DNA of 64,000 bases from Cinclus cinclus (Eukaryota > Chordata > Aves > Passeriformes > Cinclidae): NCBI RefSeq assembly GCF_963662255.1, contig NC_085050.1, positions 2,015,694 through 2,079,693 on the forward strand. The letters are read 5' to 3'. The position numbers were made by a program, and so were the translations under genes. Under the pieces are notes generated by a model that did no database searches, was not told the origin of the DNA, and worked only from the letters and a program-made list of their open reading frames with translations. This document shows, piece after piece, positions 15,454-64,000 of this stretch. Numbering within the stretch: the stretch's first letter is position 1; the number at the start of each line of letters is the position of its first letter.

Positions 15454-18400
15454 TCAGTCCGCTACGTCGATTTCCTCCTCCGAGAGCTCGGCGGGCTCTG
15501 TGGTCCCGGTGCCGGTGCCGGGGGACCCCGGGGGCTCGGGCAGCCCCGCCAGCTGCTGCAGGGCGGCGGGGGGCAGCGCTTGCAGCGAGGCCACGTCCGC
15601 CCGCAGCTCCTCCAGGTCCCGCTTGAGCTTGGCGCGGCGGTTCTGAAACCAGGTGATGACCTGGGCGGCGGAGAGCGCCAGCCGCGCCGCCAGCGCGTCC
15701 CGGTCCACCGGGGAGAGGTAGCGCTGCCGCCGGAATCGCTGCTCCAGCTCCCGCAGCTGCTGCGCCGTGAACGCGGTCCGGGACTTGCGACGCTTCCTGC
15801 AGGGAGGGCGCGGGCCCGAGGCGCCCGGCGGGGACGGACCTGCGGAGACAGCGGGATTAGGGTGCGGAGAACGGGGAGCATCACCGGGACCCGCCCCGGG
15901 GAACGGCCCCCGGGCGCCCGGCTGTGAAGTGCCAGCGGGGGCAGGAATCGCACCCCCAGTAACGGGCCCGGGACCCGCAGCGGCACCCGGATACTCGGCG
16001 GGGAGCGGCTTGTGGGGCAGGGTACCGGCGCCGGGACGCGGAAAGCATCGGCATCGCCGAACGGCGCAGAGCACCGCGGGCCTCGACCTGCGGTGGCGGC
16101 GGCGTCAGGTCAAAGACACCGGTACGCGCACCGGGACCCACCCCGAGCACTGCGGGTTCCGACCTGTAGGCACAGCAGCGCCAGGGCACCGGTAACCCAC
16201 ACCGGCCCCGCCGAGCCGCGCCGAGCACTGCGAGTGGGTCCCGGCCCCGCTGACTCCCGGTCGAACGGAGACAAACCGGCCCACATCGAACAGAACGCAG
16301 ACGAGCCATACGAAACCGAGCCGTGCCCAACCGAACCGAGCAAACCAAAACCGCGTCTGGCGCCGGAAGCCGGGACTCATCGTTCTACAGCGGTCCCGGT
16401 CGTGTCGGAGTCGCCCCCGCTGCGACCGGGGCTGAGAGACACGTGTGTCGCCGGCGGCTTCTCCGGGACCCCGGAACGAAGCCGCGACCCTGGGCGGAGA
16501 AACGGGATCCTCCTTCTTCTCCCCGATTCCAGGAGACCCGAGACCGTGCTGGTCCCCGCATTTGATCCCGGTGCCGCTCCCGGCCCCGGTGCGGTCGCTG
16601 CTGCCCCTAGCGACGTAGAGAACCCCCGGCGAGACGCTGATCGCCACCCCGGGCACGGCTCCACGCCGCCGGCGGGATCCCGATCGCGGTCCCGGTCTCT
16701 TTCCCGCTCCGGTCTCCGGTCCGTTCCTGCCCCGCCGCTGCGGCGGCACCGACCCGCGGCCTCTCCATAACGCGGCTCACTCGGGCCGTGCATCCTTCAG
16801 CTATAGCGGTGGCTCCCGGGGTCTCTCGCAGCGCGGACTCCACTCCTTGCTCGGTAGAGGAGCCCCGGGTGGTCCCGGCTGAGTCCGTGGGTCCGTCCCG
16901 GTAGCACGGCTTTACCGCGGTTACGAGAATCCGATCGATGCCGTGCTCGTCCGTCACTCCAGTAACGGGATTTCCCCTCCGCTCTCGGAGCCGCGAGCGG
17001 CCCCGTTTCTGTCCGTCCGTCCATCCCGGTAACGGGGATTTACCCCCGCTCAGGGAGCCCTGATCGCTCCGTTGTCAGTCCGTCCTTCCGTCGCGATGAA
17101 GAGGCGTTTTCGTTCATCACGGAAGCTCTGGGCTGTCCCGGCTGTCGGTGGATCTACCCGGCAACGAGGTTTTACCTGAATTACCGGCACCTCCATCTGT
17201 TCTCCGGTTCATTCCGCCGCTACCCGCGCCCGGTTAGGGACCGGGTTTTGTTAATTCCGAGAGCCCCGCTCGGCAATGTCCGTCTGTCCGGCCAGTACCG
17301 GAGCTTTACCCCCTCTCCTGGAGCCCCGATCGCTCCCACGTTTGTCCGGCCGGCAGCGGGGTTTTTCGTTCATTTTTTATTAGTCCGTGTCTGTCCATCT
17401 GTCCGGCCGGTAACGGGAATTTACCCCCGCCCCGGGAACCGCTGTCGTTCCGATTTTTGACGTCTGATCGGCCGGTAACGTTTTTTTTTTCGTTGTTTTT
17501 TTCGATCCCTTTTCTGTCGATCTGCCCATCGGGTAATGGGCCTTTTTACCATAATTCCGGGAGCCCCGATCTGCTCCGTTTCTGCCTGTTTGTCCATCCC
17601 GGAAAAGGGAATTTTTTCGCCCCCGTTCATGTCCGTCTGTCCACCCGGTAATGAGATATTTTCGTTCACTTATTTCGTTCCTTGCCATGTCCGTAGGTCA
17701 GATAACAAGGGTTTTTACCTTAAAATCGGGCGCCCGAGACGTCCCCGTTCTGTTCGTCTGTCCGCCCGCTAACGGGTTGGTTTATTCGTTAATCACGGGA
17801 GCCCCGCTCTGTCTGTCCGTCTGTCTGCCCGCTATGGTGGGTTCCTTAATTAACAGAACACCTCTCCGTAATTAGGGATTTTTCCCCACTCCCCCCGCCA
17901 TTAATTACCGGAGTCTGGCTTCATCCTCCTTCATCTGTCCGGTCGGTAACGAAGGTTCGGTTACTCACCGGAGGGCTGATCTAGCGGTCCGTGTCCGTCT
18001 GTCCGAATGCTTTTTCGTTACCGGCGTGAATCGCGTTGTGCCCAACCGTATCCATTAATTACCGGCATGCTGTTCTGCCGTGCCTGTCGGTCTGTCTGTC
18101 CAGGTAATTTTTTTTTTTTGGTTGGTTGGTTTTTTTTTTTTTCACGTTAGTCACGGAGACCCTATCTGTCTGTGTCGGTAAGGGACAGTGATTGTTTTTC
18201 TGCGTTAATTGCGCCTTTTTCGGTCTGTCCGTGTCGATCTGTCTGTCCCGGTAACGGTTTTATTAATTCCCGGCGAAGCCGTGCTTTGCCTGTCCGTGTG
18301 TCCATCCGTGTAAGAGATTTTCCGTTCATCCCGGAGTCACGATCTGTCCGTCCGTGTCCGTCTTTCCAACCCAGTAACGGATTATTTCGTTCCCGGAGGC

Positions 18401-30455: not shown

Positions 30456-32043
30456 CTACCTCCTCTTGTCTTTGATGCTGTAGTGCAGCAGGAGGGGCGC
30501 AGGCTGTGGGGTGAGGCGGGGGGAGGTCAGGGCTGGGGGGATTCCAGCCAAGGACCCCCCCTTGGAGCAGAGACTCCAGACCCCATGGCAGGGATCCCAA
30601 ATCTCAGCCCAGGGACCTCCCAGTCCATGACCCCCAGCCCAAGATCCCCTCGGGGCAGACACCCCAAACCTCTGCCCAGAAGTGCCCTGGTACAGGGATC
30701 CCCAATCCCCTCATTCTACGGGGCTGCACCCTGAACTTGGCCAACCCCTTTGGGGACTCCCCCACTGCCTGACCCATGCAAGGGCCAGGGACCTCCCCAG
30801 ATCACCACTGCAGCCACTGACATTAAAGATCCTCAATCCCCCAACCCCACACTGCCCTGAACCACTCCCAGAAAGTGACTCCATCCCCCACGCCTCACTG
30901 GGTGAACCCCAAAATCAGAGGTTGCCATCCCTTATAATGGACGCACACCTTGCCGAACCAGCGTGAGAGCCAGAGCTGCTTCATTGTCATGTGGTCAGGG
31001 AGGGGCTCATTGTCAAATAGGATCTGCACCTGTATGGGGAGGCTGCATCAGGAGGGCCAGGACACTCCTGGGGGTGGGGAACCCCCCGGGGGGGGCTGGG
31101 GACCTCCACTCACGTGCTGCAGTGACAGCCCCAGCCGGTGGCACAGGACCCTCCGCAGGTGTCGGATCTGCGCCCGCACCGAGCACCTCACGTATTTCTG
31201 CTGTGAGGGGTAGAACGGGCTGGGGGGCTGTGGAGACTCCAGGGACCCCACACCCCCCTTAGGGATGCCACACACCCCTGGCAGGGCCAGGGTGAGAGCT
31301 GGGGGTCAGGGGTGGGGACTGCAGGGATCCCCACTCACCTGCAGCACAACCTTGCTCTTGTCCTTGCTGGAGCTATGATGAGAAGAGAAAGGGACACACG
31401 TCCAGGGTCTCAGCGACGGGAGGCCATGCCCAGTGTCCCCTCCCCACCACATTGAGGGGCTGCAGCCCCCCCAGACTCACCTCAGCTTCTCCAGGCAGAG
31501 CGAGACGTGCTCATCATAGCGGAAATAGTGGGCGCGCGAGTGGTCAAAGGTGCTGTAGGGGAGCCCCATGGGGTCACCTCCCACCGTGTCTGGGGACATA
31601 GGTGGCACTGTCAGCTCCCTGTGCCCCAGACACCACCCAGCACTGCAGCTGGCTGCCCCCCAAGCCCCCCTGTCCCACCGTCACCGCTGGGCTGCGTCAC
31701 CCGGTCAAGGCCACGGGACTGGTAGAACTCCCGAATTCGCTTCTCCTCACCTGCAAGGGACAGGTGGCTCAGGGACACACCTGGGCCCATTGCCACTGAG
31801 GGCGGTCCCTGGCTGTCCTCCCACTGCACCACCACCACAGACCCTATCCCTATCCCTATCCCTATCCCTATCCCTATCCCTATCCCTATCCCTATCCCTA
31901 TCCCTCTCTCTCCCTTTGAATATCCCTGTCCCCATCCCTCTCTCTCCCTCTCCAAATCCCTGTCCCCATCCCTTGTTCTCTCCCTCTCCATATCCCTGTC
32001 CCCATCCCTCTCTCCCTGTCCCCATCCCTCTCTCCCTGTCCCC

Positions 32044-32089
<46 letters not shown>

Positions 32090-33461
32090 GCCCATATCTC
32101 CATCCCTCTCTTCCTCTCCAAATCCCCATTCCTGTCCCCATCCCTTTCTCCCCCTCCCTATCCCCATCCCCATGTCCCCTGTACTGTGCTGCAGGTGACG
32201 CCCCCTGAGGCCCCTCATGTCCCCTGTGCCCCCCATACTGTGCTGCAGGCCGGGCACCAGCTTGTACACAATGTCCTGCATGACCCGGTCCAGTTTGAGG
32301 TTGAGCAGCGGCTGCGTCTCGTGGATCTTGGTGTTGCACATGGGGCAGTACTTGCTGGTCTGCAGGTACTTCACGATGCAGCTCTTGCAGACTGGGGACA
32401 GGGACAGGTATGGGAGATGTGGTAGAGCTGGGATCACACCCCCACAGGACTCACAGCCCACCCCCAAGCCCCCCACTCAGGAGGGGACACTCACAGGTGT
32501 GCAGGCACTCGGTGATGGTGGTGGCATCGATGAAGTACCCGGCGCACAGGAAACACACGATGTGCTCGTTCAGCTCCTTCATCTTTACCTTCACCTCCTC
32601 CTGTGGGGACACCTCACTGTCACCCGGAGCATCCCAAGACCACCCTCACCTGCCATCCTAAGACTCCTCTCATCCTTTACCTGGAACCCATTAGCCCAAG
32701 GAGCTTCTCTTGCCATTCCCTAAATATGCCAGAAAAGGGGATTTTGGGGGGTTGCATCTCTTGTTTTGCTTTAATATGCCAGAAAACAGACACTGAGTGG
32801 CCTGCTAAAATATGTCAAAAAATGGGATTTCTTAGGGATTGCCCCGTCTTCCATTGTTACAACAGAAAATGAGATTTTGAGAAGCTGCCCTCACTGTCAC
32901 AGGGGGGCCACTCCTCCTATTTTCTCTTATTATGCCAGAAAACAGGACCTGGGGGGGGGGCTATGCCTCCTGTCTTCCATTATTATGGCAAAACACGGGA
33001 TTTTGGGGTGCTGCACCACCTTGTCTTGCCTTAACATTCTAGAAATCAAGACTGACCACTCTGTACTCCATTATTACGCCATAAAACGGGTTTTGGACAG
33101 GGATGGATACCGTATTTTGCCTTATTGTCTCAGAAAATGGGCTTTTGGGGGGTGTCTGGGGACACCCCCTGCTCAACCATTGACCACGCCCCCTCCCATG
33201 ACCACGCCCCTTCCCATGGCCACGCCTTCCCGCACCGCCCCTCGGTCTCACAGCGCCCCCCAGCGGCGCCACCGCGGCATCTCCCGTCCCCGCCCACGCT
33301 GGCCCCCGGTGTCGCCGCCACCGCCGCCTCCCGGTGCCTCCCGCCCGCCCGGTATGGCCGCTCGCCTCGTTCCGCAGCGGGTCCATCTTGTAGACGGCCT
33401 GGAGCTGGTTCCGCAGCCGCATGGCGATGGCCATCGGGCCCCCCTGAGGAGGCGACGCCAT
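30456..33461 (-). CDS. PCGF1: Polycomb group RING finger protein 1 (NSPc1)
   Basis: Nine coding exons (minus strand): 33461-33366, 32600-32495, 32391-32239, 31750-31685, 31589-31481, 31372-31339, 31197-31114, 31029-30949 and 30503-30456, totalling 258 residues (human about 259). The N-terminus is [18 protein letters not shown]. The RING finger (about 46-87) has its Cys/His ligands in place: [18 protein letters not shown] and YCPMC. The RAWUL ubiquitin-like domain follows in the C-terminal half ([40 protein letters not shown]), ending [13 protein letters not shown]1 pairs with RING1A/B in the PRC1.1 (BCOR-KDM2B) complex that monoubiquitinates H2A K119 at CpG islands; this is family knowledge. 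Intron 1 starts with GC instead of GT (AACGAG|GCGAGC). AATAAA is at 30363-30358. All phases agree, so the gene looks intact. Confidence 0.97.
31842..31904. repeat. Hexanucleotide microsatellite (CCCTAT)n in a PCGF1 intron
   Basis: About ten and a half copies of CCCTAT, then degenerate CCCTCTCTC/CCCCAT sequence up to about 32180 that includes a TC dinucleotide run at 32049-32087. All of it lies between PCGF1 coding exons 3 and 4. Confidence 0.95.
32700..33175. repeat. Degenerate 50-60 bp tandem repeat in PCGF1 intron 1
   Basis: At least eight imperfect copies of a unit containing TATGCCAGAAAACGGGATTT, then GGGG, a C-rich linker and TCTTGTTTTGCTT or TCTTCCATTATT. Copies start near 32726, 32776, 32812, 32866, 32930, 32982, 33040, 33079 and 33124. 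The repeat is AT-richer than its flanks. Confidence 0.7.
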
Positions 33462-40424: not shown

Positions 40425-43400
40425 ATGGAGCGGGAGGGCGGCGGCCCGGGGCCCCCCGCGCCCCACGAGCCCATCAGCTTCGGCATCGACCAGATACTGG
40501 GCGGCCCCGAGCCCACGGGGCCGCACCGGGGGGCGGCAGAACCCGACTACGGGCTCTACGGCAGCGGCTACGGCCCCACGGGTCCGCTCGGCTCCTACAA
40601 CCTCAATATGAGCATGAATGTGAGCGTGAACGTGACCCCCGCGTCCGCCGCGCCGCCAACCGGAGTCATCCGAGTCCCGGCGCACCGGCCCGCGCCCGCC
40701 CCGCCGCCCGCCGCGCCCGCCCCGCCGCCGCCGGGTCCCGCGCTGCCGGGGCTCACCTTCCCCTGGATGGAGACAACGCGCCGCATCGCCAAGGACCGGC
40801 TCTCAGGTGAGCGGGCGGGACGGCTGGTGAGGGCTACCGGCGGCTACTGACGGCTCCGGGGATTCATGCGGCACCGGCGCTCCCGGGGTTCCGTCGGGGC
40901 AGTGCAGTGCGGCTGGCGGGTCGGGGCGGACACGGGGATAGGATGGGGATGGCGGGCACCGTGCGCTCCACAGGTTCCCACAACGCCCGGTCCTCGTCCG
41001 CCGCCGTCGGGACCCGCGGAAGCGGCTCGGGGTAGACGCGGCCACCGGCAGCTCCACTGCGGCACCGGGCAGGGTCCGGCGGCTCCGGGTGGAGCATGAG
41101 GGGTCCCAGCGGGCTCCGGTCTCGAGCTCCACTCCGTAGCTAGTCCCTTCCCCGGTTTGGAGGTGCCGGGTGGCGAGCTTGTCCCACCGTAACAGGGAGC
41201 TGCTGGAGGCTGTGGGGAGCGGGGGTGTGCACTCTGTGGGGTGCGGAGTGAGGGCTCCCTTGGAATGGAAAGTGGGATGGAGGCTCTGCGGGGTGTGAGA
41301 TGTGGTGGGTGGGCTGTTTGGGGACACGATGCAGGGTGGAGAACCCACCGTGGGACTGCAGGACTAAGCCCGTCCATACACAGAGCAGATGCCCCGGCCT
41401 TGTGAGCCCCGGAGGATGGGGGCAGTAGTGGGGGGGGTAACTATAGGGTGTCTGGGGATGGGATCTGGATCCCAGATCTGAATGTGCAGAGATCGGTGTG
41501 GAACACAGTGCCAGTGCTGTGGGAGAGGCCAGGGCGGACCTGTGGCAAAAATGTTGGGGAGGCAGCGAGAGGTTGAGGTGCTGCTGCTGGGGCTGGGGCT
41601 GAGCGCCGTGGTGGGGTCTGAGCAGCAGCGCTGGGGTGGGGGTGCTGGTTGTTGCACCCGGGAAGCAGGAGGGGTGCTGAGGTTGGGATCCTGGGCGCTG
41701 AGACCGTGTGTGGGTGCTGGAGATCCCTGGCCTGGCTCAGCTCTGCTCCCGCCCAAGATGGCGGCACTGCCACGTCCACAGTGTGTGGCCGCATGTGGTG
41801 ACAAAGCTGGAAGCCGTGTGGGGCTGGGGGCTGAGTCCCAGCCATGTGGGCAATGGGGTGGTGTGGGGTGGGAGCCTGAGTACTGTGGGGGTCCCGCCCG
41901 GGCACCAGCAGAACCGCGTTCACCTCCTGGCCCACCCCGCCATCACAGCGGTGACGAAGCACCGTCCCCACGCAGGGGTGGCGGGTGACGTCCTTGTCTC
42001 CTGCCTGGCGCCAGCGTTGGGTGGATGGGGCAGCCCCTCCCCGGCACGGGGTCTCCCAGCCGCAGCCATCACTCAGCACCGCTGGCCTTGGGGTGGGCTG
42101 TGGGCAGGAGGCATCTGGTCCCAGTGAGGGGCCGCCCCGTGCGGGGAGGGGGCACGGGGGCCTCCATCCCCCTGACTGCGCAGCTCCACCTGCGTCAACC
42201 GTGTCCGCCCCCGCTGGCGGCCAGGCGGCCTCCTGGGCGTGGGTGGGAGGGAGGGTCTGTGGGCGCCGAGGGGTCCCTGGGGTGCTGTGGGCTGTGCCCC
42301 ACATCCCTGTGCCATGGGGAGCCGTGGCCCCATGGCCGCCCATGGTCCCGGCCATGTGCGGCCCTGCCCACGGGGTATCGGCCGTGGTGACGGCTGTGGT
42401 GCCATGGCGCCACAGGCTTGGCCGAGGCCGCTGCCAGAGCAGGAGGGGTGCAGGCGTTGCGGGTTGACCTTGCCAAGCCTTCACTTTCCTCTATGCTGCT
42501 TCGCTGCTCTGATGCTCCCTGTAGCTCTGGCAGCTTCTGGGGCTTGGATGTGGCACACTGGCCTCACTAGGGCTGGCTCACACCTCAGTTGGGCAGGGAC
42601 ATCCCCTTCTCTGGTCCCGGGCAGTGGCCAACCCAGGGACTGCTGGCACATGGAAAGAGACACTGCCTGCCTCCCAACAGCTTCTGTGGTCCCATCCCCT
42701 GACTGGCAGGGCTGGCCAGCCCCTGCAGTGCTGTGGAGGCTCCTCGGGGGCTGCAGCAGGGCTCGATGTGAGGGGAGGGTGGGATTGTGCAGCCCCACCT
42801 GATGGTCCTGCATCAGTCCTGTGACCAGGCCAGCCCATCCACCCTGACATTCCAGTGCCGACCTCTGGGCTGGGGGAACGACTGTACAGTGGGGTAGGAA
42901 AGGGGATGGCTCCTCCCTCATGCCATGTCTTGAGCTGCCCCTGTGTCCCCACGGTGGGGGAGCAGGAGGGCATGACTCTGAGGGGTCCCATCCCCTACTC
43001 TCCCAGACAGCACTGGTGGCTTCCCTGGAGCCACCCATCCCCATGGCCCCAAGCCCCCTGACACCCCCCAGGGTCCTGCTCTGCTGTGCTCCCTTGAGTC
43101 CCCCCTCATCCTACTGTCCCCACAGCCGCGCTGTCACCCTTCGTGGCGACACGGCGCATCGGGCACCCGTACCAGAACCGGACGCCTCCCAAGCGCAAGA
43201 AGCCGCGGACGTCTTTCTCCCGGGTGCAGATCTGCGAGCTGGAGAAGCGCTTCCACCGGCAGAAATACCTGGCCTCAGCCGAGCGTGCCACCCTGGCCAA
43301 GGCCCTCAAGATGACGGACGCCCAGGTCAAGACCTGGTTCCAGAACCGCCGCACCAAGTGGAGGTAACGGGGACGGCTTTGGGGTAGCCGCCACAACCGT

Positions 43401-46201: not shown

Positions 46202-46559
46202 CCGGACTCCCGGAACCCCGGTCCCACCAAGGGATATCGGTCCTGCCGTTACCACTGGACCCCTTGTCCCGGGACCGGATCCTCAGCCCCACCACCGGAC
46301 CCTGGTTCCTCTGCCGGACCCCAAACCCCCAACTCCGCGCCCTGGGCCACGGTTCCCCGGGACCCTCTGGACCTCTCTGGACTGACGGAACCCTGGTCCT
46401 TCTGCCCACCCCGTTCCACGGGTCCCCCGGACTTCTGCATGCCCACCTGCACCGGGACCCCCGGGAGGGCAGCGCCCGTGGGGACACACACTCACCAGCC
46501 TCTCCGGGGTGGGGGTCCCGGCCCAGACCCGTGTGGAAGCACCTCAATAAAACCCCGTG

Positions 46560-47205: not shown

Positions 47206-47309
47206 TTTTAATGGGGGGGGAAGAATCCTTTTCTGAGATGTAAAGGGATGGGGGTTCTGGGGAAAGGAGGTGCCCGTTTGTGGGGTCAGCATCCTCAAAG
47301 CCACGGTTA

Positions 47310-49180
47310 TTAGGGTGCATCGAGGCCCATCCAGGTGCTCCAGGGGCTCCAGGCTGGGGGATTGTAGGGGTCCTGGCAGCTGATGCGCACCCGCCGTGCA
47401 CCCACCTGCACCGGTGTCTCCTCCACACCCTCCACGAACTGCTCAACCTGCAGAGGGGGCAGGGAATAGTCCACGGAGACCCATGGGGAAAGGGGCACCA
47501 GCAGCCCCTGACCCCGGCAGCACCGGGGGGAGCCGGGGTGACAGCCGAGGGTGACAGTTCATCACCCCAAGAAGGGAAGCAGCAGAGTGAGGAGTGGCTG
47601 TGGCTGAGCATCTTCCCAGGCACAGAGAAAAGTCAGGGATGGGGCAGGGTGAGTACAGGGCAGAGTGCGGACATGGGGTAACCTGTCCAGGATCCCCCTG
47701 GGCAAGGAACCCCTTCCCATTACCTGGGTACCGTTGTGGAGCTCATACTGTAGACGGTAAAGCAGTGCAAAGTAGGACTTGGAGAGCGGCCAGGAGGCCG
47801 GGGGGGCCCAGGCCAGGTGGAGCTGCTCCCCCCGCTGCTGCAGGATTAGCTCCTGGGGTGGATCAGGACACACTGTGGACAGAGGGGGCTCAGAACAGAG
47901 GCTGAGACCCTCTCCCCACCCCGGAGCCTCCAGTACCTCTTGGACACCCTCACCCTGCTGCTCCTGCCCTGAACTCACCAATGTCATGGATGAAGAAGTG
48001 CCTGGACAGGTCGAGATAGGAGGTGTCTGAGAGCCCTTCCAGGTGCAGCTGGAGTGGGTGCAACTCCTCTCCAAAGGGGCAGAACAAGGGATCTGCCAGA
48101 CTGGTGTTGAACCAGCCATTGTCACTGGCCACTGGTACCCATGGCCCCACGGAGCCATCGCTGTGGGGAGAGAGGTGTGAGCAGGTCTTAGGGCTACGTG
48201 GCCGTGGTGCTGGTGTGGGTTTGGGGGGTCTCGGGGCACCCACCTCTGTGTGAGGCGGGCACGGAAAATTGCAGAGGAGGGCCCTGGCCAGGAGCAGTGG
48301 AAAGAGCCATTGTAGGACTCAGCCTGGCAAGACACGTTGATCTCGTCCTCGCCTGAAGGGACAAAGGGGTGACTGGTCAGGGGCTGCATGAGGCAAGGAG
48401 CGGTGCCCCCTCCCTGCATGGCAGCTCCCCCACAGCCCTGCCCAGTGCAGCCCCAGGGGCTTGGCATAAGAATCTCCTCTTCCTCAGCTCTCCATCCCCT
48501 GCACCCCATCATCCCCAGACACCCCAGCCATGCCCCTCCATACGGGTGCTCCTGACCACCACGTAGGTGGTGTCCAGCAGGATGGGGCCAGCCCAGCAGC
48601 TGTAGTTGCCAGTGGCTGGCAGGTCCAAGCCACGGATGGTGAGGTTCTGGCCCTCAGGCACCAGTTCGGCCATGGGGTCCTCCTCCCCGTTCAGCGTCCA
48701 GTAGATATGCTGCTCTGAAGTGTCACATCGCACCACCACGTCCTGGTTGAGCTTCCCCACCTGGACTGGAGATGCAGAGCCCATGGTCAGAAATGGAGTG
48801 TGGTGGGGGCAGATTGTCCCCCAAACCACGGTGGGGCTGGGTGCCCCTTGGCCTCACAACCACCCTGTCCCACAGTCCTCCCCCTGCATCTCCACTCCAC
48901 ATCCATCCCCCTACTCCCTTACCCCATACCCACCCCACATCACCCTCATGCCCATCCTCTAATGTCCCAGCAGAGCTGTCCCAACTCCTTTCAGGGGGAT
49001 GTGGATTTGGGATGCCCCCCACTCCCTCTGCTTCCTCTGCAGTCCCTGCAGCTGCCTCACCAGAAGGTTCCCCCTCCAATCCCTCCCTGTGCCCTGGGAG
49101 CAGCACTCACACTTTGGAGGGAAGGCAGTCAGGGGTTCTGCAGGCACAAGGAACAGCACCAGTCCCACCAGCACTAGCAT
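47310..49180 (-). CDS. Interleukin-12 subunit beta-like (p40-like) secreted cytokine receptor-type protein
   Basis: Six coding exons (minus strand): 49180-49111, 48765-48544, 48352-48244, 48160-47979, 47872-47724 and 47447-47310; all phases agree, giving 289 residues. Signal peptide MLVLVGLVLFLVPAEPLTA. An Ig-like D1 follows (DVVVRCDTSEQHIYWTLNG, GNYSCWAG). The first fibronectin domain, D2, has INVSCQAESYNGSFHCSWPG and ends HFFIHDIVCPDPPQELIL. D3 has SYFALLYRLQYELHNGTQV and a canonical WSPWS box near the C-terminus. There is no transmembrane segment or GPI signal. Domain order and motifs fit IL-12/IL-23 p40 (human: FFIRDIIKPDPPKNL, SYFSLTF). EBI3 lacks the Ig domain. p40 proteins are secreted and pair with p35 or p19 helical cytokines to drive T-cell and NK responses. 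It is a paralogue candidate, because IL12B normally lies near TLX3 and DOCK2. A non-coding first exon ends at 49349 and ATTAAA lies at 47211-47206. Confidence 0.82.
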
Positions 49181-49344: not shown

Positions 49345-49560
49345 TTACCTCTGTGTGTGTCTCTCTGGTGGGCTCAGCAGGGCTGGGGGCTGCGGTCTTA
49401 TACTGGGCTGGACTCCATGGGGCTGTCCCAAAGTGCAGCCACAGCGGCATCACAGTTCTCAGAATTGGAGAATGGCACCCATGCTCAGCCCCCTGCCTCC
49501 CACCCACCCAGCCTCGGGACTCACCGCTGGTACTTCCCAGGGGCAGGGGGTACCACACAC
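49345..49560 (-). promoter_or_regulatory. TATA promoter and leader exon of the IL-12B-like gene
   Basis: On the minus strand TATAAGA (49402-49396) is followed about 25-30 bp later by the presumed start of a short non-coding exon that ends at a strong donor (GTAAGCAC, just below 49349). Upstream, GGGAAGTACC (49538-49529) differs from the NF-kappaB consensus at one position. A TATA box plus a kappaB-like word is how inducible IL12B promoters are built, which supports a regulated cytokine gene. Confidence 0.45.
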
Positions 49561-51144
49561 CCCCTGCCCTGCCCCCAATTGCCAGAGGATGGGTCCCCCC
49601 GGGAACAGCTGGGCAAGGGGCAGCGCTGAGCACCTGGAATGTTTGGGTTCTGGGTGGTCCCATGTCTCCCAGAAGGGTCCTGAGCCCCTGCACCACCTGA
49701 GGGTCTGCACATCAGCATGTGCTGCACAGAACCCCTTCAGTGCCCTGCTGTGGGGCGGGGGGACCAGTGAGGTCTATCAGCACCTGTGCCAGGGGTTTCA
49801 ATAGGGGCAGCTCGGGGCTGGGCCCCTCTGGGTGGGCTGTGGTGGGTCCCTGAGGAGAGGGGAGAGTTTCCACAGAGGCTTGGGGTGATTTCCCCCATCC
49901 CAACACAGGCTGTCTCATCCCTTCCCTCCCCTCCTCCAGCCACTGTGTCTCCCATGGGATGCAGTGCAGAGATGAGGACATAGGGACAGAGACCATCATG
50001 GTCACCAGCTGCCCCTTTGCCACCTCACTGATGCGGGTCCATGTCGAGGGTGCATAGCAGACCCCACCCTGGGGAGGGGATCACTGTACCCTTTCATGTA
50101 CTTTCTGGACTTCCTAGAAAGCAAAGGGGAAGTGGGGGCTGTGGGAGGCTGGGGGAGCCCAGCTCTCAGCTTTTGAGGCACTGTGGCCAGGATGGGGTGA
50201 TGGGACCTCCGGGCCCATCCCTGAGCAGAGCCGCACCCCTGTGCATAGGCTGCGGGATGCGGAGGGGAAGCTGGGACCCCAAGGCCCCCGTGCAGCAGCT
50301 CAGCCCTTGGCTGTAGCATTGCAGAGAACCCCGAAAGGCGACGGAGGGATGAGGTGCCTTGCCCGGGGGTACACCCATGCCCTGCCCTGTCTGGGGGAAG
50401 CAGGCAGTGGCGGCAGGTTCGCCCCCACCTCGCCAGCCTTAGCTTCCCCTTGGCTTCTGCAGAAGAACCGCAACCACGTAGGGGAAATCCTGATGCAAAG
50501 GCCAGGGATGCCCTCAGTGCCTCAGCATGGTTGGGACCCCTGCCTGGCACCCGAAACAAGGGTGGGAGGGGAGAGAGAGCTCACAGACAGCAACCATCCC
50601 AAAGAAGGGCAGTGAAGCCTCACAGACAGAAACCATCCCCAGGAGAAGGGAAGAGCAGGTAGAGACCATCCCAGCCAGATGCCCCTGTCGTGATGTCCCT
50701 CGCCAGGATGGACCCCACCCTGGCTGGACCCCTCGCTGCAGTCATGGACACAAAACCAGGAGTAAAAGTCACAAAACTTTATACAGGAGGGACCCGTGCA
50801 TGGCCCCTCGGTGCCGGATGTGGGGGGAGCAGGACAGGTGATGCCTCCAGCTCCACAGACCCCCTGGAAAGATGGGGTGAAGGAGCCTAGTGGGGAGGGC
50901 CCACACAACTCCCCTGGCCAGGGCCAGCGCTCCCCAGTCCACACTCTGAGGTGCCAGGGTGGTCCCACAGCCGCTGGCCCTCGACTGATTGCGGCGCAGC
51001 GCTGAGGCAGTGCCCACGCCTCCCTGGGACCCGGGACAGCCCCTGCAGCCATACAGCCCCCCCTGGGGCCTCCCCGGGGCTCCCCTATCCCCAGGGTCAT
51101 GGCCAATCCCAGGCAGCCCCACCACGGGGCTCCGGTGCTCCGGC
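49561..51144. other. Intergenic between the IL-12B-like gene and DQX1
   Basis: No gene is recognised. The right end contains the DQX1 3' UTR; near 50780 the minus strand reads GTATAAAG, the only weak poly(A)-like word found. Between about 50500 and 50680 an ACCATCCC-containing phrase (CACAGACAGCAACCATCCC, then CACAGACAGAAACCATCCC) is repeated. Confidence 0.4.
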
Positions 51145-55962
<4,818 letters not shown>

Positions 55963-56640
55963 GGCGGGGACACCGGAGCTGCGAGGGCGGGCAGGGGTGG
56001 AGCGGGACCGGCGCTGACCCACCCTCGCCTACGTCCCGGGAAGGAGCCCGGTGCAGCCCAGTGCCACGTCCCGTCCCACGGGGAGGGGGGACCCGCGGAT
56101 ACCCGGGATGGGCGAGGGATGCGGGCACAGGGGCACGGACAGGTGTGGAAGGGCGACAGGGCCGCGGAGACCAGGAACAGAACCGGAGTGTGGGGGACCG
56201 GGAGATCGGGCAGGGAACCGGGGAAAAGGGATGGGGCAAGAGCCCCGCAGGATCGAGCAGAGTGCGCAGACCGGGCAGGACTGTGCGTGGAGACCGGACT
56301 AAGGCAGGGTACAGGGGTTGTGGGACAGGGCGGACACCTTGGGAGGGTCGGTCCCGAACGACACGGGCCGACCGGGTCGGCGGAGCACCTGTACGGGCCG
56401 GTCCGGACCGGGCACCTGAACACCGGCACCGGGCCGAACCTCAGCGGAGCGGAGCGGGCGGGCGGGTCAGGGGCGGGTCGCCAGCATCCCCCTGAGCCGC
56501 GGCCCCGGTTCCGGCCCCGGTTCCGGTTCCGGTCCCGCCGCTCACCTGCGCGCGCCACCGCGGGCCCTGCCGGGGGGCACGGTCACGTGAAACACGTAGC
56601 GTCACGTGCCCCGCCCGCGGCAGCCAATCACCGCCCGCGC
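55963..56640 (-). promoter_or_regulatory. DQX1 upstream region with paired CACGTG E-boxes and CCAAT
   Basis: GTCACGTGA (56582-56590) and GTCACGTG (56601-56608) lie 19 bp apart and match USF/MiT-TFE (CLEAR-type) sites. A CCAAT box follows at 56624-56628. On the minus strand CGCAG|GTGAGCGG at 56546 looks like the donor of a short non-coding first exon, so transcription probably starts near 56560-56600. The region is a CpG island. Confidence 0.5.
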
Positions 56641-58683: not shown

Positions 58684-61600
58684 ATGGCGCCCTGGCTGCC
58701 CACCAAGGAGAAGTATGGCGTGGGTGAGTGGGGGCTGCAGGCGCTGGGCCCTGTGGGGGTTTCCACTCGGCTGGAGGGGCACAGGGCTGGCAGAATGGGG
58801 TGCTCAGGATGAGGTGACATCCACGGTCCCCCCCTGGCTCTGGTGGTGGCAGCTGGGTGATGGCAGCCAAGCTGGTGCCATTGTGAGGTGATGCAAGGAG
58901 AGGGCCAGATCCCTGCGGTGCTGGTGTTGGTGCTGTCTGGGTGCAGGAACAAACAGGGGTAGCGAGAGCTGCAGGGCTGGTGACAGAAGGCTCAGGGACA
59001 GGGGCCAAGCAGGACAGGTGCCAGCAGGACTCACGCACCAGGAGGCTTCAGAGCTGGTGCTGGTGGGGGTGGGAAGCACTGGGATGGTTCCAGTCCCTCC
59101 AGGCTGTGGGTCTGGGCTCAGCCCGGCTGCTGAGGCTCTGGGGGAGCCTTGAGATACCCCAATAATTTTCCTCAGGTTCCAGCTGGGGCTTTGCAGTTGC
59201 CTTGGTGTTGGTGATGGCAAAACCCTGGGCAACCCAATTCCTTGCAGCACCCTCAGCTTGGGCTCCCCATGCTCTGCACCAGCCCTGGGCGCCCCCACTC
59301 CCCGCAGTACCCCCAGCTTCTGCTGGCTCTGGCAGCCCTGTGTTTCTTCCCGTTTCTTGTGGGGCTGTTTCCTGCACCCTTCCCTTTCACTTTTTGCAGT
59401 GCTGGAGCAAGGGCTGAGCTGCTGCAGGGTCCTGGGCAGCACCTGAGTGAGAGCTGAGCTGCTGCTGGTCCCAGCTGGCTCAGGGTCTTCGTGGGGAGTT
59501 CAGGGTGATGGGAGGAGTACTATGGGGTCTTGGGGCTCCCAGTGCCCCAAGGTGTGAGGGTCAGCCTGAGAGGTCCCAATGAGTCAGGCGGGTCTGGGGG
59601 TGCTGCAGTATGAGCTGGCCCTGGCTTGGGACTCGGGGTAGGCACAGGCATGGTCCTAGTAGGGATCCCCGGATGTAGGGACTCTCTCCCCATCTGGGGG
59701 CCAAACCAGGTCTGCCTGCCCCAAAGCTGTCCCTGGGCCCAGAAATAGCAACAGGGACAACCACAGCGCAGCTGGGCAGGAAGCGGCTGGCCACCAGAAA
59801 GCTCCTGTCCCCACCGCCCCCCTCCCCCGCTAACAGCTCTGCTGTCCCCAGACAGTCCTGTCCCTGGGCCACCAGCCCTGGGCAGGGGCTCAGCTGGCAC
59901 TTGCCCCCCTGCACTGCCTGTGCCAGGAGCAGGACTCACCAGGGTGTGGGTAGCAGGCAGGGGGAAGGGTCCCATAAGGGACCCCTGAGTGCCAAAAGGG
60001 GGCTGGGGGCTTCTGCTGTGCCCGGCCCTTTGTGGGCTGTGCTGTGGCTCTCCTGGGGTGCGGAGTCGGAGTGTTTGGGGGTCACACGCTGTTTGTGGGG
60101 CTGGAGCTCTGCCTCATCTCTCAGGGCTGAAAGGAGCCTGCTGGGGTGCTGTGGGGGGCACGCAGCCCGTGGGGTCTGGCTATGGGGTGCTGGTGCACAG
60201 GGCCTGGGGGCTGGTGAGGGGCTCCCGGCAGGGATCCCAACTCCTAGCCCCTCTTTTCACAGCCGTGTGGAACTTCCCGCGCACCAAGGAGCATCACCTC
60301 CCGCTGCAGATCGGGGAGATGGTGCACATCCTGCGGGCCTCCGAGGGTAAGGGGGACCCCCAGGTACTCCCCAGCGTGGGTTCTTGCACCCTCCTTTTTC
60401 CCTGCAGCAGGGGTCAGGACTCCCAGCCTGGCTGACGATGTCCCCTCCCTTCACAGGCTGGTACTGCGGGTACTCGCTCCGGAACAGGGCTGCCCGGGTA
60501 GGTGAGGACGTGCTGGGGTTTTGGAGGCAGGAGGGGCACTGCTGGTGGCTTTGCCTATCCCTGCTGGGTTTCTGCGTGGGCAGAGGGGGCATGGACAGCA
60601 GCTTGCCCTGTCCCCGGGGGAATGTCGGGGCTTGCAGGGAGCAAGGCTGGGCACCCTGTGGCATTGGGAGTCCCCAGCTGTGCCCCCCTGAGGGACATCT
60701 TCCAGCTTCGGGGTGCCGACGGCTCTGGCTCCTTCAGGGCATCTTCCCGGCCTCGCTGATCCGGCTGAAGGGCGCCGTGTTGGAGCAGCGGGGGTAGGTA
60801 CAGGGCACAGGCAAGAATGATGGGCTCCACCTTGCGCCACGTGCGGGGTCCCTGCAGTGCTGTGGTGCTCCAGGGATCCCTGTGCCTCCCCCAGGGTGGA
60901 GGAGAGCATGGAGGAGAGCACCCCCATGGTGCAGGAGATCACCACCACGCTGAGGGAATGGGCCACCATCTGGAAGCAGCTCTATGTGGTGAGGGACGAG
61001 GGTCTGTGTGTCGGGGGCAGGGATCTCAGAGCGGGGTGGGGCACCTCTTGTGACCCCGGTGACCTTGTGGTGCTGCCGCAGGCCGGGCAGATGGAGCGGT
61101 ATGGACAGGTGAAGAGGATGATGCAGGAGCTGATGGAGCAGCGCTCGCAGCTGCTCTCGGGGACACTGCCCAAGGACCAGCTCCTGCGGCTCAGAAAGGA
61201 GGTGACCGGCAAGATGGACTACGGCAACAAGTGAGGGCGGGGACAGGGCACAGGGACCTCAAATCTGCCTCTGGCACAGGCTGTGTGGTGCTAGGGTGTG
61301 CTCCCTGGTGTCCTGGCTGGCTGTCCCTGTGTCCCCATCATCCCAGCTGGCTGTCCCGTGATGGCTGGGACAGTAAATGTGCCACCAAGCCACCTGGCTA
61401 AGGGCTATGTCTGAGAAGCCGTGGCTGGGACAGGAATGTTCCTGGTGCTGCCAACTCCTGTCCGCTTCCCCAGTCTAATCTGTCCTGCGCCCTCAGACCC
61501 TGTGCAAGGACAAGTGAGTCCTGGTGGGACACACAGACCCTGTGTCCTGCCTCACTCCATCCTGGCCCCTGCAGGATCCTTGCACTGGACCTGGTGGTGC

Positions 61601-63918
61601 GAGATGAGGACGAGAACATCCTGGACCCCGACAGGACCAGCGTCATCAGCCTCTTCCAGGCGCACAGGAGGGCGGCGCAGACCCTCACCCAGCGCATCCA
61701 GGAGGAGACGGTGAGGGCGCTGCTGGCCCTGTACCCAAAGCCTGATGTCCCCTGTGCCAGGGGATGTGACAGGGGCTGAGCTGTGGGGCTGAGCCACCTT
61801 GTGCCCCCCACCTCGTGCCCCCCAGAGCCCTCAGCAGACAGCACCGGGCCATGGCATCCAGGGGGCTGCTTCACCCTCCCACAACCTCTACCTCCGTGTC
61901 CGCAATTTTGTCTGCCACATCGGGGAGGAGGCGCAGCTCTTCATGGCCCTGTATGACCCCAGCGAGCAGCGCATCATCAGGTGGGGTCTCAGGGCACAGG
62001 ACAGACCCCTGGCCGTGCTGTGCTGGGTGTTTGTCCTGCTGCTCCCTGTGGCATTCCCCTCAGGCTGCCCATCCTGCCCAGCCCTGAATGAGCCGGCGGG
62101 TGTCACAGGGGGAAGGGGCATCCCAAAGGGCTTCTCCAGAGCAGGAGGGTTCGTTGTGGTGTGCCAGCCATGCAGCCATATCCTGTGGGACAGCCCACGG
62201 CTCGCCCTGCCCCAGGCACTGGTGAGGTGGCCAGTGCAGTGATTTGGGACAGCCAGGCTGGGCCAGTGCCTGTGCCGCGACTGGGGACGCTGGTGGGCTG
62301 AGGGGTCTGTACGGTGGGAGCTGCCAGGGGCTCTGTCATCCCGGTGCCCACCTCAACCATCACTCACCCCGCAGCGAGAACTACCTGATCCGCTGGGCCA
62401 GCACCGGGGTCCCCCAGGACATCGAGCTGCTCAACAACCTCAAGGTCGTGTTCACGGTGAGGGCAGACCCCGGGGAGAGCTGCGCTGCTGCCTCCTGCCG
62501 CCCCTTCCTGCCGATCTGCCGGCACCCGCGGCATTTCGGGTGCCCCGTGTCCCCCCGCGAGAAGCCGAACCCCCATCAGTCCCCTGCTCCTGTACCCCCA
62601 GCCCCTCCGCAGACCCCTGCCCTGACGCCGGGACGTGGCACACGCCGTCCTGCCCCTCGGGGTTGCTGGCTGCCCCTCGGGGTTCCCTCCCGGTGCTGGG
62701 GTCTCGGGGTGCCCTCTCGGTGCCCCGTCCCCGCTCGTCCCACTCCTCTCGGCACCCGCTGACTCAGCGCTGTGGCTGCAGCGCAGCGCTGACCCCCGGG
62801 ACTCCGCGGAGCCATCGATATTCAAATGAGCCGGGAAAATCAATGTTAATGAGCAGCATCAGCACTTCGGCTCCGCTGACCGTGGGCTCTCTCCCATCTT
62901 CGCCCTCTGCTCTGCTCGCTGCTGATGTGCCCGCGTGTCCCCACGCGTTGTGGCTTGTCCCTATCCCTTCTCCTTAGCGCCGCTGGAAGGTTTTAGCGCA
63001 GGGGCAGCACCCGAGGGATCCGATTCCCTCCCCAGTGTCTCCGGAGCTGGAGTATAGGGCCACCTTGACATCCTTACACCATGCCAGGTTACCCCCCGCT
63101 TGCCAAACTGCCTGGGCTAGGGTGACCTGTTTGGACCATCGGTCCTGGCATTGTCCCCATCGCTGGGTTTTGGGACTTCTGGGGTGGACGGAAGCCTCCA
63201 GGGCAGCGGGGCTGTGTGCTCACTGTCCCCACAGCGTAGGGCAGCAGGGACCCATCTGTGCCCACTGGTTCCCCCTGCGCAGCCCTGAGCACCCCACCGT
63301 CACCTGGCGCTGGCGCTGGCTTGTCCCCTGCGGTGCTGCAAGAGTCACACGGCTCCTGTCCCCCCAGGATCTGGGCAGCACGGACCTGAAGCGGGAGCGG
63401 CTGTTCCTGGTGTGCCAGATCATCCGGGTGGGGCGCATGGACCTGCGGGACAGCCACAGCCGCAAGCTCAGCACGGGCCTGCGCCGGCCTTTCGGCATCT
63501 CAGGTGGGGATGGGCTCCATGGAGACTCCCAGGGACTCCCGTGCCACCCCCCTGGCACCCCCCCCAGCCACCACACCAGACTCTGTGATGTCCCTGGGCT
63601 GCTCCCACTGTCCCCTTTCCCTGCTTGCAGACCCCAACCCTCTGCATGGCTGCCCCCACACTGCCACCCCCCGTCCCTGCCCAAGGGACACAGGGGACCC
63701 CCAGCACAGCGCTGCTGAGGTGTCCCCAGAGCAGCCCTGGGGAGATCCCCTGCCTTCACCTGCCCCCACGATCCTGTTCTGGGCATGGATCATTGGCTGG
63801 GGGTGCCCCCCCTGCCACCGTGCCACCTCTGTGTCACTGCAGTGATGGACATCACCGACATCACCAAGGGGATGTGTGACAGTGATGAGGACAAGCAGCA
63901 CTTCATCCCCGTCCACCT
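58684..63918 (+). CDS. DOCK-A subfamily guanine nucleotide exchange factor (DOCK2-like), N-terminal 349 residues
   Basis: Eleven coding exons: 58684-58723, 60263-60346, 60457-60497, 60738-60793, 60895-60988, 61082-61230, 61575-61710, 61826-61980, 62375-62456, 63368-63503 and 63843-63918; the gene runs off the right edge in phase 2. The N-terminal SH3 spans about residues 10-70 ([31 protein letters not shown]). The DOCK helical region follows: [108 protein letters not shown] and [15 protein letters not shown]-1 and DHR-2 lie outside the window. The start MAPW and [16 protein letters not shown] are closest to DOCK2. DOCK1, 2 and 5 bind ELMO through the SH3 region and activate Rac. All phases agree and no residue is lost, so it looks functional. 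The tiny introns and neighbours differ from DOCK2 near TLX3. Confidence 0.88.
58724..60262. other. Intron 1 of the DOCK-like gene
   Basis: About 1.5 kb of GC-moderate sequence with CAGCACC/GCTGGTGC-type low complexity. No additional exon or strong element is recognised. Confidence 0.4.
62800..62905. promoter_or_regulatory. Candidate enhancer inside DOCK-like intron 9
   Basis: A small AT-rich island: GAGCCATCGATATTCAAATG (with ATCGAT and the octamer-like ATTCAAAT), then GGGAAAATCAATGTTAATGA and GCAGCATCAGCAC. It has the same look as the blocks around LBX2 and TLX2 and lies in the longest visible downstream intron of the DOCK-like gene. Confidence 0.45.
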
Positions 63919-64000
63919 GTGAGTCCCATGGGCAGGGGTAGTGCTGCGGGGACAGTGGGCAGGGAGCAGCACTCCAGGACCTGGCTGGCATGGGGACACC

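Follow-up and report, generated by a model that had tools for sequence, protein, structure and literature searches.

An IL-12 p40-like gene beside canonical IL12B in the genome of Cinclus cinclus

IL-12 and IL-23 steer T helper 1 (Th1) and T helper 17 (Th17) responses, and in mammals one p40 subunit is common to both. A stretch of 64,000 nucleotides from the 1.17-Gb genome of the passerine Cinclus cinclus (contig NC_085050.1, here C8, positions 2015694–2079693; hereafter the window) raises the question of whether a bird can carry more than one such subunit, as positions 47310–49180 of the window hold a gene on the minus strand whose product has the layout of p40 (hereafter the p40-like gene). 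An earlier reading of the window, made from its letters without database searches (the sequence-only reading), proposed that this gene is a second tetrapod p40. We find a second p40 gene, intact and conserved, beside a canonical IL12B in the same genome, a conclusion that is close to certain.

The p40-like gene consists of six coding exons (49180–47310, minus strand), and the bounds given by the sequence-only reading are exact to the base. Joined in frame, the exons give 870 nt, or 289 codons and a TAA stop, and 5/5 coding introns are bounded by GT–AG, with phases 1-1-2-1-0. Coding exon 1 (49111–49180) begins with the start ATG, encodes an N-terminus with the hydrophobic stretch MLVLVGLVLFLV that was judged by eye to be signal-peptide-like, and ends in the donor GTGAGTGC in phase 1. 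Coding exon 2 (48544–48765) encodes the Ig domain (D1), on which the Pfam profile Ig_3 scores 26.3 bits (E 1e-5), below its cut-off of 30. The fibronectin-type domain D2 is divided between coding exon 3 (48244–48352), where the IL12p40_C profile reaches 34 bits across residues 104–175 of the protein against a cut-off of 25, and coding exon 4 (47979–48160), which carries the motif FCPFGEE with C161, the equivalent of human p40 C199. The second fibronectin-type domain, D3, is likewise encoded in two halves by coding exon 5 (47724–47872), assigned by exon reading, and coding exon 6 (47310–47447), which contains CQDPY, a WSPWS box, and the stop TAA.

The stop directly follows D3, and only 764 bp separate it from an opposite-strand polyadenylation signal at 46546, taken as that of TLX2, a distance too short to accommodate an anchor exon on the 3′ side. 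The predicted product is a soluble protein of one Ig and two fibronectin-type (FN3) domains with no membrane anchor, for which secretion is predicted, and the architecture proposed from the letters holds up under Pfam, exon reading, and fold prediction, with the signal-like start judged by eye. The protein contains six N-glycosylation sequons, and its cysteines are C37 and C80 (Ig domain), C106 and C117 (first D2 pair), C161, C196, and C268. C196 (47868–47870, minus strand) is private to this bird, in the context VCPDPP; the other 38 p40-like sequences in our alignment have R, K, Q, D, or E at this position. Among sequences of solved structures in the PDB, the best matches are IL-12 beta chains (E 6e-21), followed more weakly by CNTFR (5e-10), IL-27 beta (3e-9), and IL6R (5e-5), and the predicted fold likewise finds IL-12 p40 as its best match.

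The possibility that the p40-like gene is the bird's only IL12B was rejected, as a separate IL12B lies at 20.13 Mb of contig C17. A search of the whole genome with the IL12p40_C profile gave eight matches: two exons over the cut-off on C17, a single exon of the window gene below the cut-off (24 bits, E 0.05), and five matches with E values of 3 to 9, which were taken as chance. The C17 gene reads as canonical IL12B, with a signal exon MSHLLCALLSLFSFTALLESAQWKLQEN (sought in phase 1 only) and five further exons, and because it sits separately in the same genome, the p40-like gene is a second p40. The two genes share the signal-like start, the Ig D1, the FN3-type D2 and D3, the lack of an anchor, the WSxWS box, and the p40 fold, and the four IL12B exon junctions compared have the same phases as in the p40-like gene. 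In contrast, the two proteins share only 30% identity (253 columns, E 9e-28), the p40-like protein reaches about 25% identity to mammalian and other avian IL12B, and the p40-like gene stands beside TLX2 on C8, whereas IL12B is on C17. The same genome also contains p35-like (IL12A) exons at C13:1857873–1859332 and a p19-like (IL23A) match at C33:2118274–2118489; the p35 matches (24.2 and 22.2 bits) fall short of the cut-off of 25, but comparison with human p35 led to their acceptance as p35-like, and the p19 match (31.2 bits) is over its cut-off of 27.

When the protein was searched against databases, as the sequence-only reading had proposed, relatives were found in birds, turtles, snakes, and a lizard, mostly annotated as "interleukin-12 subunit beta-like". 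The search covered 5.8 billion proteins and returned 74 matches for the p40-like protein and 116 for a ten-row alignment; the closest named matches of the protein are passerine (Turdus, 88% identity; Taeniopygia, 87%), and further down the ten-row search lie two teleost p40s, fish IL6R proteins, and a frog IL11RA. The best 120 of 194 matches in a third protein search are nearly all avian and mammalian IL12B. The single-sequence and ten-row searches, which depend on shared words and include some nameless matches, yielded no named mammalian match, and this suggests that the p40-like gene is absent from mammals. The description as a second p40 is accordingly sound, but "tetrapod" is too wide, since the gene is shown for birds, turtles, snakes, and a lizard only.

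The gene is already present in databases under the NCBI name "interleukin-12 subunit beta-like", including chicken LOC101747944, which is the name of the chicken match P0054 in our protein search. In RNA sequencing of chicken caecum during Eimeria tenella infection, LOC101747944 (IL-12beta-like) has been reported to be significantly upregulated at 4 and 10 days, and the three cytokine genes upregulated at 4 days were LOC101747944, IFNG, and IL10 (PMC8438895); this report supports the view that the chicken gene is transcribed and inducible. The Gallus gallus models P0047 and P0054 look mis-joined by eye: in one, the beginning is incorrect and an intron is read through, and in the other the frame shifts after the first half of D2. 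A literature search that left most subscription journals outside found no paper presenting birds or reptiles as carrying a second p40, the consulted passages of a 405-species IL-12 paper describe no second avian p40 (PMC12162339), and a word search of the main text of a paper on missing avian genes found no IL12, interleukin, TLX2, DQX1, or EBI3 (PMC12954441). Annotation and one expression study already know the gene, which belongs to the p40 family without being an IL12B orthologue.

The relationship to IL12B and to receptors was examined in a tree of 38 rows (18 p40-like, 13 IL12B, 2 fish p40, and 5 receptor-type outgroups, one each), in which some rows were trimmed of mis-predicted ends, and in a reduced tree of 34 rows without CRLF1, EBI3, IL6R, and the lizard row, in which CNTFR and IL11RA are the sole outgroups. 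All p40s separate from IL6R, CRLF1, IL11RA, CNTFR, and EBI3 with a support of 100/99 (38 rows) or, from the outgroups retained, 100/100 (34 rows). In the larger tree, 17 bird and reptile database proteins form one group with the p40-like protein (93/94; 97/94 in the reduced tree), and the 13 IL12B rows lie across a branch of 97/94 (95/93 in the reduced tree), on the side of which the two fish p40s, whose type is unassigned, also fall, on a long branch. The gene therefore lies neither inside IL12B nor among receptors, the two placements that the sequence-only reading had named as contrary to its proposal. A constraint joining the p40-like proteins with sauropsid IL12B was rejected (p-AU 0.022), and with it a sauropsid-only duplicate of IL12B, so the split between the two genes is older than sauropsids; the best tree and the gene order together place it before the divergence of fish.

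Teleosts, with their p40 a, b, and c forms, similarly have extra p40 genes besides one IL12B, and trout p40 paralogues are reported to share a mutual identity of only 24% (PMC4929537). The p40c of common carp and grass carp has been described as lacking the interchain cysteine (PMC8481787), unlike the p40-like gene, which has it. EBI3, the beta chain of IL-27 and IL-35, is also a soluble beta subunit of an IL-12-family cytokine, but it consists of two FN3 domains without an Ig domain and is the tree partner of CNTFR (94/85), whereas the p40-like protein has an Ig domain.

Gene order points to the origin of the split. A DOCK query of the whole genome gave 14 matches in four places (C8, in the window; C17:6.63 Mb; C10:2.5 Mb; C32:2.79 Mb), and EBF DNA-binding domains gave 17 matches on the same four contigs (C8:1.65 Mb; C17:17.4–17.6 Mb; C10:1.16–1.24 Mb; C32:2.5–2.6 Mb). 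The best 3 of 43 TLX matches are on C8 (98%), C17 (97%), and C10 (93%), and the rest reach 60% at most; the assignment of particular copies to TLX1/2/3, DOCK1/2/5, and EBF1–4 is presumptive. Together, C8, C17, C10, and C32 form a fourfold paralogue block such as the two genome duplications early in vertebrate history leave behind. The p40-like gene is on C8 and not on C17, the contig of the TLX, DOCK, and EBF copies that accompany IL12B, and because paralogues of all three families occur on both contigs, the p40-like gene and IL12B are likely ohnologues from the early vertebrate whole-genome duplications. The Tlx2 and Tlx3 loci have been proposed to derive from one ancestor by second-round duplication, with DOCK2 linked to TLX3, and TLX2 in the human locus is flanked by DQX1; a word search of the main text of this work found neither "il12" nor "interleukin" (PMC2446394). 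The human TLX2–DQX1 arrangement fits a loss of the p40-like gene from that interval.

The residues that have been kept and changed suggest how the protein may work. Conservation was read from 59 chosen rows, namely the window protein with 38 further p40-like proteins, 2 fish p40s, and 18 IL12B proteins, assembled without fragments, fusions, redundant models, and this bird's own IL12B. The cysteine equivalent to human C199 (here C161), which forms the bond to p35 or p19 in human p40 (PMC7600943), is kept in 39/39 p40-like, 18/18 IL12B, and 2/2 fish p40 rows; in p40-like and IL12B proteins alike, EE occupies the fourth and fifth positions after it. W37 belongs to the D36/W37/T38 site and is needed for binding to IL-12Rbeta1, and homodimeric p40 requires the site too (PMC8571081); it is found in 18/18 IL12B rows and, by gene reading, in this bird's own IL12B, but in 0/39 p40-like and 0/2 fish p40 rows. 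In the p40-like lineage, E81 is replaced by D and F82 mostly by L, and W81, C268, and W283 are specific to the lineage. WSxW is present in 39/39 p40-like rows, with S (26), T (7), Q (4), or R (2) in the fifth position. At the position of C268, just before the WSxWS box in exon 6, all 18 IL12B and both fish p40 rows have alanine. Y136, E203, Y268, D312, and Y314 are presumed alpha-contact residues and were not used as support; a literature search for an Arg189/Asp290 interface found no paper.

Our joint reading, which we hold to be reasonably likely, is that the gene encodes a secreted second p40, an ohnologue of IL12B, that uses the conserved cysteine to pair with a helical partner of the p35 or p19 type. 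The p40-like protein would be made and secreted in Cinclus cinclus, with immune cells producing it together with an alpha subunit that D2 and D3 would clamp as in IL-12 and IL-23, and the secreted form would be a disulfide-linked heterodimer. Formation of a heterodimer with an alpha subunit is probable. In the receptor pair, IL-12Rbeta1 would be replaced or contacted differently, and the altered Ig domain may confer a receptor use unlike that of canonical p40; an altered use of IL-12Rbeta1 is somewhat favoured.

Several points weigh against this reading. The absence of W37 may be ancestral, as the fish p40s also lack it, and need not mean that IL-12Rbeta1 binding was lost. The p40-like proteins have no cysteine at the columns of the second D2 disulfide of human p40 (C170/C193), human C300 and C327 are also unmatched (these are kept in just 9/18 IL12B rows), and a D3 cysteine peculiar to the lineage, C268, is present in 39/39 rows. 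The fold was predicted from an alignment that contains 18 IL12B and 2 fish p40 rows, a composition that tilts the model towards p40. The fish p40s number only two and lie on one of the long branches flagged by the tree program, and on C17 the paralogues are spaced over many megabases (TLX at 1.2, DOCK at 6.6, EBF at 17.5, and IL12B at 20.1 Mb). Finally, a constraint joining the p40-like proteins with all amniote IL12B was not rejected (p-AU 0.125 with 38 rows, 0.218 with 34).

One alternative, which we regard as unlikely, is that the protein acts chiefly as a monomer or disulfide homodimer free of any alpha subunit, modulating or blocking IL-12 and IL-23 receptors in the manner of p80. The mammalian p40 homodimer is reported to be secreted in excess, and monomer and homodimer to antagonise IL-12 (PMC7600943), and the invariant C268 could provide a second interchain bond; however, the tryptophan that homodimeric p40 needs for IL-12Rbeta1 is missing throughout the lineage, and the segment around the alpha-bonding cysteine is strongly kept. 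It is rather improbable that the gene arose instead as an early-amniote duplicate of IL12B that then diverged fast. The unrejected amniote constraint allows this origin, but the best trees put the p40-like proteins outside IL12B and fish p40 together, and a later copy of a single gene would not explain the DOCK, EBF, and TLX paralogues on both contigs. A role like that of CRLF1, as soluble receptor-like partner to a cytokine of the IL-6/CLCF1 type, would agree with the soluble Ig + FN3 + FN3 layout that the two proteins share and with the weak similarity to CNTFR, but CRLF1 falls among receptors in the tree and has a lower fold similarity to the p40-like protein, and such a role appears very improbable. 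Identity as a CNTFR/IL11RA/CRLF1/EBI3-type receptor was itself rejected by the 100/99 branch of the 38-row tree. A decaying, non-functional copy, to which the partly mis-joined chicken models might point, is scarcely credible given the intact frame and splice sites, the close identity to Turdus and Taeniopygia, the cysteines and motifs invariant in 39 sequences, and the reported induction of the chicken gene (PMC8438895).

A secreted second p40 that pairs with an alpha subunit would have consequences beyond this bird. We tentatively suggest, as a possibility that falls short of being probable, that birds and non-avian reptiles retain a p40 ohnologue lost in mammals, which builds a further heterodimer through the p35/p19-type docking cysteine without classical IL-12Rbeta1 signalling. 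If so, sauropsids could assemble more IL-12-family heterodimers than mammals, sauropsid immunity would possess an additional cytokine axis of the IL-12 type, studies of chicken "p40" may address just one half of the p40 repertoire, and the deep divergence among p40 types, which teleosts show as well, may go back to early vertebrates. The induction reported in chicken caecum during coccidiosis would make poultry a direct test system (PMC8438895).

Upstream of the coding region, a probable non-coding first exon (about 49349–49372, minus strand) may be recognized from a TATAAG box starting at 49402 and a donor AGAG/GTAAGC at 49348, its start being estimated at about 30 bases from the TATA box, and the acceptor CCCTTCCCAG directly precedes the ATG. 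Six simple promoter patterns gave no match in about 500 bp upstream of the gene, and a polyadenylation-like signal, ATTAAA, lies at 47207–47212 (minus strand).

The neighbouring genes include an LBX-type homeobox (15616–15795, minus strand; 77% to an LBX homeodomain), corresponding to the LBX2 neighbour, PCGF1 exons (31707–32573, minus strand; 88–100% to a human fragment), and a TLX-type homeobox (43191–43364, plus strand; 93% to a TLX homeodomain), corresponding to the TLX2 neighbour. A search with an HTRA2 fragment gave no match in the window. On the other side of the p40-like gene lies a DEAH/DEAQ-type helicase region (50772–56028, minus strand), which we call DQX1-like after the name given in the sequence-only reading; of its four presumed stretches, Pfam gave OB_NTP_bind over the cut-off in one (34.1 bits against 29.5), AAA_16 below the cut-off in one, and nothing in two. 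Next to this DQX1-like region, at 60200–64000 (plus strand), is a DOCK1/2/5-type gene that begins by eye at about 60.2 kb and runs off the window, with four exons at 61576–63451 and a DOCK_N score of 129 bits. The genome has four such loci, one more than the three human DOCK1/2/5-type genes; the gene in the window looks like a fourth DOCK-A ohnologue, one not shown in the described human TLX2–DQX1 locus.
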